From Anaerolineae bacterium (lineage in GTDB: Bacteria > Chloroflexota > Anaerolineae > Anaerolineales > UBA11858), in the NCBI GenBank assembly GCA_003694235.1, contig RFKO01000172.1, forward strand, positions 1 through 6,655: a stretch of 6,655 nucleotides of DNA, in the 5' to 3' direction. The first letter of the stretch is position 1. Each line of letters opens with the position of its first letter. The notes beneath the pieces were generated by a model, which searched no databases, was not told where the DNA came from, and saw only the letters and a list, made by a program, of their open reading frames with translations. The position numbers and the translations under genes are program-made. This document shows positions 625-3,212 of the stretch, one piece after another.

Positions 625-1920
625 TCAGTGTTCTTCAATCGTAATCGTGATAATCTGGTCGCCGGGGGGCAGGTCGCCGCCCTGAGCGGGGTCGCGCGGC
701 GTCAGGGCGTTGAGCACATCCATGCCCTCGAGCACCTCGCCAAAAATCGTGTATCCGCCGTTCAGGTGTTCCGCCGGCCCGTAGGTGATGAAAAACTGGC
801 TGCCGTTGGTATCCGGCCCGGCATTGGCCATCGCCAGCAAGCCGGCCCGGTCGAACGTCAGGTTTTCGGAGACCTCATTGGCAAAGGCATATCCCGGCCC
901 ACCCAGGCCAGTGCCGCTGGGATCGCCAGCCTGCGCCATGAACCCCGGAATGACCCGATGGAAGGTAACGCCATCGTACCATCCCTGACGCGCCAGAAAG
1001 ACAAAGTTGTTCACTGCCAGAGGAGCGACATCAGGGAAGAGTTCCACCACAATGTTGCCCTTCTCCGTCTGGATGGTGGCGGTGTACCCTTTAAGCGGGT
1101 CAATCACCTCGGGGGGGCACTGGTCGAACTGGCGCTCGGAGAGGTTGATCAGCGCCAGAATGGTGCCCACCACCGAGACATCCAACGCTCCGTTGTAGGG
1201 GTTGTTGTTCAAAACGATGAACGGCGTCCCCGGCAGGCCGATCTCCTGCCCCTTCTCCCAGGCCTGCTGCGCTTTGGCAACGATAGGCTCACTGGTCAGA
1301 TCGGCCTCGAATTGGGCCGCATCCAACCCCAGGGCTTCTGCCTGATCCACCAGCCAGGCGGTGAAATCCGACGGATCAAGCCCGGCCCATTCGGACTGCT
1401 TCTCGAACAACAAGTCGTGCATCTGCCAGAACTGCCCCTGCGCCGCCGCGGCTTCGCTGGCCTGGGTCGCCAGCAACGCTTTATCATGAATGGAAGCCAG
1501 CGGGAAATGCCGGTAAACCACCCGTACATCCTCGGGAAAAGCCTCACGGATTTGCGCCAACACGGGCGCCATCTGCGCGCAGTACGGTCATTGAAAATCG
1601 CCGTATTCGACAATAGTCAGGGCGGCAGTGTCCGGGCCATCCACCCAATCTTCAGCGGTGACGGCGAACAGAGCCTCGAATTCCGACGGCGCTTCCGGCA
1701 AGGCGCTGACCAGCGTGCATTCGCTGACAAAACCGCTGCTGCCCGTCTCTTTCGGTTCTTGTTCAGCGGTAGGGGAGGCCTGCGCTGCCATCGGGGTTGA
1801 CGCCTGCGTCGAGACAGCAGAGGGTTGGGGGGTGGACGGCGGCTCGGTGGTGTCCGTTGGGCCTGCGACACACGCCGTCAACGCCAGGGCCAGAACGGTG
1901 AAAACAAGAAACTGTCGCAT
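625..1920 (-). CDS. Lipoprotein selenoprotein: DsbA-like thioredoxin fold (U-P-Y-C) fused to cyclophilin peptidyl-prolyl isomerase
   Basis: A predicted 431-residue envelope foldase read through one in-frame UGA (residue 111). Residues 1-17 are a lipoprotein signal with lipobox LTA-C17. Residues 18-65 are a Pro/Ser/Thr/Gln-rich tether. A DsbA-like (Thioredoxin_4 type) domain spans about 90-260, with TIVEYGDFQ-U111-PYC114-AQMAP, then RVVYRHFPL and the cis-proline loop GLPGTPF (Pro233). A cyclophilin domain spans about 276-431, with FHRVIPGFMAQAGDP (320-334) and ANAGPDTNGSQFFI (365-378); the CypA Trp121 position is His, as is usual in bacteria. The inferred role is thiol-disulfide exchange plus prolyl isomerisation outside the membrane. 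Cys68 and Cys268 are further cysteines. GGAG eight bases before the ATG at 1920 supports the start. The internal ATG at 1572 has no ribosome binding site and would lose the redox motif. Alternatives are a nonsense mutation or a sequencing error. The gene starts 26 bases after the peptidase stop. Confidence 0.82.
1545..1577 (-). promoter_or_regulatory. Candidate bacterial SECIS hairpin downstream of the UGA
   Basis: In the mRNA, GCGCC (1569-1565) pairs with GGCGC (1558-1554) around a six-base loop, CGUGUU (1564-1559). Below a G/AA internal loop, GAU (1573-1571) pairs with AUC (1551-1549). After one A/C mismatch, CGC (1577-1575) pairs with GUG (1547-1545), including one G-U pair. The loop begins 23 nt after the UGA and has G at its second position followed by U. 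From memory, the bacterial SECIS rule is an apical loop about 16-37 nt after UGA with a G in its first two bases. GC-rich coding sequence also forms hairpins by chance, so this supports rather than proves recoding. Confidence 0.65.
1588..1590 (-). other. In-frame UGA, predicted selenocysteine codon (Sec111)
   Basis: The minus strand reads GGC GAT TTT CAA TGA CCG TAC TGC. The TGA occupies the first position of the C-P-Y-C redox motif, where DsbA-like relatives have Cys, and the second Cys (114) is intact. The frame stays open for 315 codons beyond it, with conserved thioredoxin-fold and cyclophilin motifs. UGA still ends other genes here (625-627, 4693-4695, 6653-6655), so a genome-wide reassignment is not the explanation. 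Confidence 0.8.
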
Positions 1921-1946: not shown

Positions 1947-3212
1947 TTAAGGCCGGTCGGCGGCGCGCAGCACCTGCTCGGCCGACCACATCCATGAAAT
2001 CCGATTCAAGAACTCCGCCAGCGAGGGGCTGGCCGCACGCAACCGACGCACCGCATCGCCCAGCGGGTCTTCCGACGCGCCGGCCGCGCCGCCGGGGGTA
2101 TCGGCGTAGGCGCCATGAAAGGCGAAATACGCCTGATTCAGTTTACGCAGCCGATAGCCGTTTTCCCAGAACACCAGGCGGCGGGCTTCCATATAAGCCT
2201 CGGCTTCCTCAACCTTCCCCTGCGCCAGCAGTTCATCCACCCGCAGGCGGGTTTTGTGCATCTCGGCGCGGAAGTCGAAGGGCGGCGGCTGCGTTGCCTC
2301 GGAGGCAGAGGGAGAGACCTTCGGCGGGGGGGCGGGAGAGGGCATCCGCTCCGGATAAAAGCGCCTCAGATAAGCATCGCGGATTTCTTTCCCGGCAAGA
2401 CTGGCCACCGTCTCGTTGATGATGCGCATCTCCGGGCTGCTTTCGTACAGCATCCCCAGAGGACGCAGGGTGAGGAAATTGTGCACCCATTCGTGCGCCA
2501 CCACCTCCACCAGCCAGTTGAGATCGGTGGATTGAATGACCATGGTGGGATACACGCCCACGCCACCGACATTGACCACCAGCGAAGAGACGTTCAGGGC
2601 ACGATCCACCTGCGCTTCCAGCGCCTCGCGCTGGTCGGCAGTCAGCCCGGCGACCAGCGAGATGTTGAAATCCTGCCGAATCACCTCGCGCGGGGAGACG
2701 ATCAGCGCGGTGGGCAGAGGCGTCACGTGATACAACACCGGAGGGACGGGCAAACCGCCGAGCGTCAAACCCATTTCCGCTGCCACGGTGGTCAACTGAT
2801 CCTGCAAAATGCTCTCCACCAGCGGCGCGAGAAAGCGCTGCTGGGAGAGCAGTTCATCCAGCTCGCGGCGCGCGGCCTGCGAAGCGCCTAGCGGATCATC
2901 CACCTCCGGCGAGGCGTAAATGGCCTCGATTTCGGCCTCCAGTTCCTGCGTGCGCCTGACCAGATCGAGGTACTGCAGCACCAGGTTGTGCGCCTCCCGC
3001 GAGGGCAAATACTGCGCCGGAGCAGCTGCCGTTTGGGCGGCCTTGAGCATCAGCGCATCCAGCATCCAGCCGGCATAGTTGAACTCCAGTGGACGGGTGA
3101 ACGCCCGCAAACGACCGGCGCGGTCGGCCAGATCGGCGTGAGAGCGCTGTAAAACCAGCATCAGCGCCAGCAGAAAAAGGAGCGTCCGCAAGCGGCGGAA
3201 CCACCGTTCCAT
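1947..3212 (-). CDS. Membrane-anchored or secreted HExxH zinc metallopeptidase (family not recognised)
   Basis: 421 residues. The basic N-terminus (MERWFRRLRT) and hydrophobic residues 11-21 form a signal peptide or membrane anchor; SHA at 24-26 is a possible cleavage site. Helical, charged sequence with coiled-coil character covers about 72-125. The catalytic signature VVAHEWVHNF places H240-E241-x-x-H244, with NETVASLAGKEI following and Glu267 as the likely third zinc ligand (gluzincin-like, HExxH then ExxA 22 residues on). A Pro/Ser-rich hinge (291-311) leads to a helical C-terminal region containing LNQAYFAFHGAYADTP (358-373), whose His/Tyr residues may contribute to the active site. The substrate is unknown. 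I recall similar uncharacterised proteins from Chloroflexota but cannot name a family. It is first in the leftward operon. No Shine-Dalgarno precedes the ATG, and the inferred promoter lies almost on top of it, suggesting a leaderless start. Peptidase activity is inferred from the motif only. Confidence 0.8.
   Translation of the reverse strand: MERWFRRLRTLLFLLALMLVLQRSHADLADRAGRLRAFTRPLEFNYAGWMLDALMLKAAQTAAAPAQYLPSREAHNLVLQYLDLVRRTQELEAEIEAIYASPEVDDPLGASQAARRELDELLSQQRFLAPLVESILQDQLTTVAAEMGLTLGGLPVPPVLYHVTPLPTALIVSPREVIRQDFNISLVAGLTADQREALEAQVDRALNVSSLVVNVGGVGVYPTMVIQSTDLNWLVEVVAHEWVHNFLTLRPLGMLYESSPEMRIINETVASLAGKEIRDAYLRRFYPERMPSPAPPPKVSPSASEATQPPPFDFRAEMHKTRLRVDELLAQGKVEEAEAYMEARRLVFWENGYRLRKLNQAYFAFHGAYADTPGGAAGASEDPLGDAVRRLRAASPSLAEFLNRISWMWSAEQVLRAADRP

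Follow-up and report, generated by a model that had tools for sequence, protein, structure and literature searches.

One gene in the 6,655-nt stretch of Anaerolineae DNA analyzed here (contig RFKO01000172.1; hereafter the window) very probably encodes a selenoprotein, likely a lipoprotein, in which selenocysteine (Sec) is read from an in-frame UGA codon, and in which the DsbA-like domain carrying this residue is fused to a cyclophilin. This reading is drawn from sequence comparison. The initial annotation had described two open reading frames in the same frame split by one TGA, and this arrangement was confirmed on the minus strand, where positions 1920-625 are open throughout save for a TGA at 1590-1588. 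The upstream frame (1920-1588) is 110 aa long and ends at this TGA; the downstream frame (1572-625) is 315 aa long when counted from its first ATG. The read-through product has 431 residues, with U at position 111 within EYGDFQ-U-PYC, and its translation contains no other stop or frameshift. A second TGA, at 627-625, is the ordinary terminal stop of the fusion gene. The features of the gene and of its upstream neighbor are collected in Table 1.

Table 1. Features of the predicted selenolipoprotein gene and of the gene upstream of it
Feature	Coordinates	Strand	Basis
Whole gene: predicted selenolipoprotein, 431 residues, DsbA-like then cyclophilin domain	625..1920	-	Read-through translation, Pfam
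Signal peptide, lipobox LTAC, Cys17	1870..1920	-	Cys17 in 95/99 rows
DsbA-like thioredoxin-fold domain, residues 92-250 (PF13462, PF01323), cis-Pro 233	1171..1647	-	Pfam
In-frame UGA, residue 111, predicted selenocysteine of U-P-Y-C motif	1588..1590	-	Translation, alignment column
Cys114 codon, resolving Cys of UxxC motif	1579..1581	-	Cys in 64/64 Sec- and Cys-type rows
SECIS-like hairpin: stem 1571-1565 with 1558-1552 (one mismatch), loop CGUGUU 1564-1559	1552..1571	-	
Cyclophilin-type peptidyl-prolyl isomerase domain, residues 281-408 (PF00160)	697..1080	-	Pfam, structure comparison
Upstream neighbor, 421 aa, N-terminal hydrophobic helix, HEWVH (2495-2481), N-E motif	1947..3212	-	

Relatives of the gene were read at 102 loci: 48 that include the window's own (L018-L065), 53 of the best 80 of 188 GTDB loci (L077-L129), and one further stretch (L194, from G192), the only one added from among the matches that had not been made into loci. 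The other 27 of these best 80 (L130-L156), mostly from other phyla, matched in the DsbA half only and were left out. Three loci were removed from the alignment, namely a partial gene (L125), a gene whose frameshift misaligned the column of interest (L122), and L077, leaving 99 rows. Among the best 80 of the 188 GTDB loci, L077 is the closest (71%, from an Anaerolineales assembly); judged by position and identity, it duplicates L048, which comes from the same genus. The tree comprises 95 rows after removal of the duplicates L092, L093, L109 and L126, which were likewise removed from the first hairpin scan described below.

The active-site column of these 99 homologous genes holds TGA in 30 rows, a Cys codon (TGC or TGT) in 34, and a codon for another residue in 35; the loci were picked by similarity to the window's protein (P0001) and by short word patterns, and 30 of 99 is not a natural frequency. 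The Cys codons of the 34 relatives bear out the initial placement of the TGA at the first Cys of a CPYC motif. In each of the 30 TGA-bearing homologs, this codon is the sole in-frame TGA and always occupies the same alignment column, which argues that its position is not due to chance. The close relatives, too, have UGA or Cys in this column of the alignment: among the 21 genomes of the window's own family, 11 carry TGA and eight carry Cys, while two have no full-length match. On the tree, L057 and L058, one of the Sec type and the other of the Cys type, form a sister pair.

The part of the gene that lies 3' of the UGA is under purifying selection, as judged from substitution rates. Decay in close relatives had been named at the outset as an outcome that would speak against Sec, and none was found: for this part, dN/dS is ∼0.1, with a value of 0.108 for the window's gene against L048, values of 0.081, 0.068 and 0.060 for three closer pairs, and 0.387 for the distant pair formed with L027, synonymous sites being near saturation in most comparisons that involve the window's gene. 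One further 3' value, 0.208 for L065, is unreliable, the 3' part of that gene lying in another frame. The portion 5' of the UGA is less conserved than the 3' portion.

The domain content of the protein is well defined by profile searches. Pfam scores exceed the gathering thresholds widely for Thioredoxin_4 (PF13462; 67.2 bits vs. 23.2), DSBA (PF01323; 62.2 vs. 25.6) and Pro_isomerase (PF00160; 157 vs. 21.7), and the LPAM_1 lipoprotein profile gives 15.2 bits, below its cut-off of 20. A linker separates the signal peptide and lipobox from the DsbA-like domain. Among the relatives, the two domains remain fused and the Cys of the lipobox is retained in 95 of the 99 rows, which favors the fusion originally proposed. 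The cis-Pro of the DsbA-like domain is invariant (99/99 rows), and the residue before it is Thr in all 30 Sec rows. Thr also precedes it in 21 of the 34 Cys rows, while the other 35 rows mostly have Val (30). In the cyclophilin domain, R322, Q330, N366, Q375 and F377, which we take to correspond to residues of CypA, are kept in most rows (R322 in 91 of 99). Two further cysteines, Cys68 and Cys268 (codons 1717-1719 and 1117-1119), occur together in 78 of the 99 rows, are both absent from 14, and stand alone in seven. Because they are in the main jointly present or jointly absent, a structural disulfide between linker segments is suggested by the alignment.

An AlphaFold2 model of the read-through protein built with 56 homologs has a mean pLDDT of 90.3 and a pTM of 0.81, with residues 22-28 and 31-47 below a pLDDT of 50. 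Its cyclophilin fold was confirmed against the PDB, where Mycobacterium tuberculosis PpiA (1w74) matches with 49-53% identity over the domain. The VIA-align matches listed for this model are cyclophilins alone because the cyclophilin domain fills the list. No DsbA structure is ranked there, and the DsbA assignment therefore rests on Pfam and NCBIfam.

Bacterial Sec insertion is expected to involve a SECIS hairpin downstream from the UGA, and a GU-loop hairpin at 23 nt had been pointed out by the initial annotation. Such a hairpin does exist, with its loop beginning 23 nt after the UGA. As given in passages of PMC13188914, the bacterial SECIS model consists of a loop of 3-9 nt and a stem of 4-16 bp, with G in one of the first two loop positions, a distance of 16-37 nt from the UGA, and an MFE ≤ -7.5. 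The window's hairpin conforms to the model as stated there, with a 6-nt loop that has G at position 2 followed by U, a core stem of 5 bp, and an energy of -12.9 kcal/mol. Taken by itself, the window's hairpin is not significant: single-sequence folding gives a shuffle z of +1.42, no better than chance, and its six of seven pairs are reached in 13% of draws from a synonymous-codon null. A search of the whole window against Rfam at E ≤ 10 returned no SECIS or credible RNA, only seven weak matches that all fall below the gathering score.

Much stronger evidence comes from covariation among relatives, for which three sets of rows were chosen by branch: A1 (16 of the 30 Sec rows), A2 (20 of the 34 Cys rows) and A3 (14 of the 30 Sec rows). 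In A1, which holds the 16 Sec-type genes nearest the window, the hairpin is a 7-bp stem with 96.4% of its cells paired and a loop of CGUGUU or close variants. All 16 rows form the five core pairs, and three pairs have changed on both sides in a compensatory manner. None of 500 shuffles scores as high on any of five measures, and when the hairpin is shifted along the alignment the paired cells reach at most 59.8%. At the same positions in the Cys-type genes of A2, 50.0% of cells are paired and RNAalifold finds no structure. A null that shuffles codons while keeping the protein yields the same picture for A1, where 108 of 112 pairs form against a null mean of 69.0 (SD 3.3; 0/2000 draws as high). 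The Cys rows of A2 show a slight excess, with 70 of 140 pairs against 58.7 (7/2000), and this excess comes partly through L080.

The gene at L080 (396-455) has a Cys codon in the active-site column, yet it retains seven of seven hairpin pairs, and it is the sole such case among the 20 Cys-type controls. From its sequence, L080 has likely undergone a recent change from Sec to Cys and still carries a fossil SECIS hairpin.

The mere presence of a hairpin was also considered as a marker to separate Sec-type from Cys-type genes, and was rejected. A scan at 16-37 nt with our version of the model found a conforming hairpin somewhere in 25 of 30 Sec rows, but also in 23 of 33 rows of the Cys type and in 24 of 32 with other residues, with mean energies of -8.3, -5.7 and -5.7 kcal/mol, respectively; the model is permissive and the classes are not separated by it. 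Because the SECIS model alone is this permissive, the weight of the argument rests on the conserved place of the hairpin and on its covariation.

The 14 more distant Sec-type genes of A3 have a conserved hairpin that lies 15 nt further downstream. Its stem (columns 35-41 with 45-51) encloses a loop of GGU or GUU, has 90.8% of cells paired, and includes four pairs in which both partners have changed. The same genes also have a proximal helix (11-18/24-31), which is 72.3% paired. With the two helices taken together, none of 500 shuffles reaches the paired cells or the covariation score; the count of doubly changed pairs is matched by six of 500, and that of further pair types by 51 of 500. Counted from the UGA, the distal loop begins at 38 nt, or at 37 nt if U41-A45 is taken as the loop pair, which places it at the edge of the 16-37 nt range of the model. 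All five Sec rows in which the first scan (16-37 nt) missed a hairpin belong to this far branch, and they were missed because the hairpin there sits at 38 nt. In one member, L119, the distal hairpin is not formed (2/7 pairs). That the two hairpins could be one misread element was rejected, since each branch is without signal at the position of the other.

These observations bear on the history of Sec in the family. By a quick method, the tree requires eight changes of the Sec state, and starred branches impose at least five of these. A tree constrained to place all 30 Sec rows in a single clade is rejected (p-AU 1.5e-116). Neither analysis distinguishes gains from losses. Considered jointly, the two hairpin positions and the tree suggest that Sec was gained more than once, although the hairpin may instead have been relocated after a single gain. 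A family with two SECIS places and a Cys-type gene that retains the hairpin can be used to trace the gain, loss and relocation of SECIS elements.

The expectation that the host encodes the Sec decoding machinery was borne out in part. The genome assembly of the window (1.78 Mb in 344 contigs, 80.8% complete) includes a tRNA-Sec of 74.8 bits, which ARAGORN also reports as SeC with anticodon tca, and a SelB of 348.8 bits (cut-off 242.25) with SelB winged-helix domains. The other two genes named in the initial annotation, selA and selD, were not found in this 80.8% complete assembly; a selD-like match was rejected because it is HypE (385.9 bits). Among 57 genomes searched, 21 of the family and 36 chosen others, matches over the cut-off were obtained for selA in 54, selB in 55 and selD in 49. 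A tRNA-Sec was counted in 54 of the 57, a generous figure because the model also matches other tRNAs: in 14 control genomes it gave matches at E ≤ 0.001 in all 14, five of them over the cut-off. Of the 11 family genomes with the TGA, only that of the window yielded no selA; the other 10 have the gene. A genome of the same genus (G411, 80% complete) has selA and a 74.8-bit tRNA-Sec, with no selB or selD over the cut-off. One of the other genomes searched (G410, 82% complete) carries the Cys form of the gene; none of its selA, selB and selD matches is over the cut-off and its tRNA-Sec match reaches only 47.1 bits.

Three explanations that dispense with Sec were weighed against these data. If translation stopped at the UGA and restarted downstream, two proteins would result: a short lipoprotein, and a cyclophilin that keeps only a truncated piece of the DsbA domain. 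Protein databases do hold products that start after the UGA, as the initial annotation had foreseen for standard gene calling: P0008 (312 aa, the post-UGA part of L048), P0017 (a “hypothetical protein” of 315 aa) and P0039 (a “peptidylprolyl isomerase” of 311 aa). Such entries are without the catalytic residue, and we consider restart very improbable. Its product would be deprived of the active site, although the domain is conserved and purifying selection acts on it; the first ATG after the UGA (1572) comes only after the Cys114 codon (1581-1579); 34 relatives encode the fusion with Cys; and the UGA-bearing genes share a covarying hairpin whose seven pairs all form only in L080 among the 20 Cys-type controls. 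Slightly less credible still is a nonsense mutation, gene decay or sequencing error. The missing selA and selD would fit such an origin, but the TGA recurs in the same column of 30 genes from many assemblies, dN/dS downstream is near 0.1, and no other stop or frameshift interrupts the gene; the relatives already refute this explanation unless the genome of the window alone has lost Sec decoding. The least plausible proposal, to which we give almost no weight, is that UGA is reassigned genome-wide or is read as Trp or Gly without selenium. Nothing was found in its favor, the genome has tRNA-Sec and SelB, and the aligned residue is Cys in 34 relatives. TGA also terminates the fusion gene itself and two neighbors, an ATG22 gene and a VanW gene, and UGA is therefore not reassigned.

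A fourth alternative shares the Sec claim with our preferred explanation and differs in function. The protein could be a true selenoprotein whose DsbA-like domain is chiefly a reductase or a peroxidase-like antioxidant and whose cyclophilin is a mere binding module. Sec in thioredoxin folds is often used for reductive chemistry, and the equivalents of CypA Trp121 and His126 are presumably His385 and Tyr390 in the window's protein, both of which favor this alternative. Against it, the domain matches the DsbA/DsbG group in Pfam and NCBIfam, and the likely extracytoplasmic place, together with a PPIase that conserves the five residues listed above, points to folding. We regard the antioxidant role as unlikely, though a serious competitor, and a role in folding as reasonably probable.

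In the folding role that we prefer, SelB with Sec-tRNA would bind the hairpin 3' of the UGA, and Sec would be inserted at residue 111. The signal peptide and a lipid anchor at Cys17 would fix the protein to the cell membrane, facing outward. There, Sec111 and Cys114 would constitute a reactive pair adjoining cis-Pro 233. Sec111 would attack disulfides, or substrate thiols would attack Sec111, and Cys114 would then resolve the selenenyl-sulfide, which would make the protein a disulfide oxidase or isomerase. The sequence data are compatible with oxidase, isomerase and reductase roles alike. The tethered cyclophilin would turn X-Pro bonds in the same client.

A third participant may be encoded next to the fusion gene. 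The HExxH-type neighbor precedes the fusion gene, in the same orientation, at 70 of the 102 loci, and HExxH is retained in all 70. The window's 421-aa representative has no Pfam or NCBIfam match and shows a weak gluzincin-like fold match; it is likely a membrane-anchored zinc metallopeptidase of no named family, and likely acts as a membrane protease of the same folding and quality-control unit. Our overall reading, which we put forward tentatively as a whole, is that Anaerolineae possess a lipid-anchored bifunctional selenoenzyme in which a prolyl isomerase is tethered to a selenol disulfide isomerase, and that this enzyme and an unclassified zinc protease of the membrane are made as a single unit for folding and quality control outside the cytoplasm. 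The repeated gain of Sec that forms part of this reading is proposed because the codon position of the SECIS hairpin differs between the two main Sec branches.

The claim that a Sec-containing DsbA-cyclophilin protein is undescribed holds for the fusion, of which no record was found in the open-licence PMC literature as far as its searched passages extend. It does not hold for the DsbA/DsbG-like half, because selenoproteins of this kind with UxxC are already catalogued in passages of PMC1088965, PMC1794560 and PMC13188914. The novelty lies in the cyclophilin fusion and not in Sec within a DsbA fold. The nearest named family is NF041057 (Rcas_1661 family thioredoxin-like (seleno)lipoprotein), which corresponds to the “DsbG-like protein, UxxC” of the passages in PMC13188914. 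Its members are lipoproteins that have a DsbA/DsbG-like domain with Sec first in UxxC, as is predicted for the window's protein. Profile positions 2-234 of 247 align with residues 7-245 of the window's protein, but the score of 92.5 bits is below the curated cut-off of 190 (three far relatives score 82.3-98.1 bits), and the profile stops where the cyclophilin part starts.

Other relatives share part or all of the architecture. The DsbA-like selenoproteins of form 1 (Sargasso Sea and later; PF01323) have the DSBA domain and UxxC, and the passages searched mention no cyclophilin. M. tuberculosis PpiA has the cyclophilin fold but is a single domain, its chain being without a DsbA part. The Cys-type DsbA-cyclophilin fusions of Chloroflexota have the same architecture at 44-58% identity to the window's protein (60% for P0002), whereas Cys replaces Sec and the SECIS hairpin is not conserved. 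The name “cyclophilin family peptidyl-prolyl cis-trans isomerase/protein-disulfide isomerase” is given to some database entries with this architecture, whichever active-site residue they have. If our reading is true, the fusion represents a new architecture in the selenoproteome, one in which Sec chemistry and a prolyl isomerase are physically linked at the cell surface, in a large and mostly uncultured bacterial class. Sec and Cys enzymes of the same architecture, including the sisters L057 and L058, also provide a natural test set for the benefit of Sec in oxidative folding.

Several additional observations were made in the course of this analysis. The genome of the window encodes a second DsbA-like protein (L191, 525-1391 on the plus strand of contig 288 of G000) with one in-frame TGA at UxxC, which speaks further in favor of Sec in the fusion protein. 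Its motif is EFSDFQUPFC, and it scores 172 bits against NF041057, below the cut-off of 190. A possible hairpin lies downstream from this TGA, and the same TGA is present in L192 and L193.

Nearly all of the above-cut-off selD matches listed for the relatives carry one in-frame TGA inside the gene, which makes SelD itself a probable selenoprotein in the majority of them, as far as sequence can indicate. In two genomes (G200, contig 14, and G168, contig 1; L171 and L172), the selD match lies in open frames of 743 and 750 codons without TGA, and a TGA-bearing selD is also found elsewhere in the same genomes. These long TGA-free frames are possible fusions.

A branch of 35 rows (e.g., L036, L034 and L024) has replaced the first active-site Cys by Ser, Ala, Thr, Asp or Glu. 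In 31 of these rows, a Cys is present four residues earlier, as in CDFQSxGC, and the Val noted above before the cis-Pro belongs to 30 of them. The redox pair of this branch has perhaps been re-sited. Finally, a dCTP deaminase gene occupies positions 3-599 on the minus strand of the window (DCD 5-107) and extends past the window edge. It is broken after residue 107 by an intein-like stretch that matches Intein_splicing at 28.4 bits, below the cut-off of 35.8.
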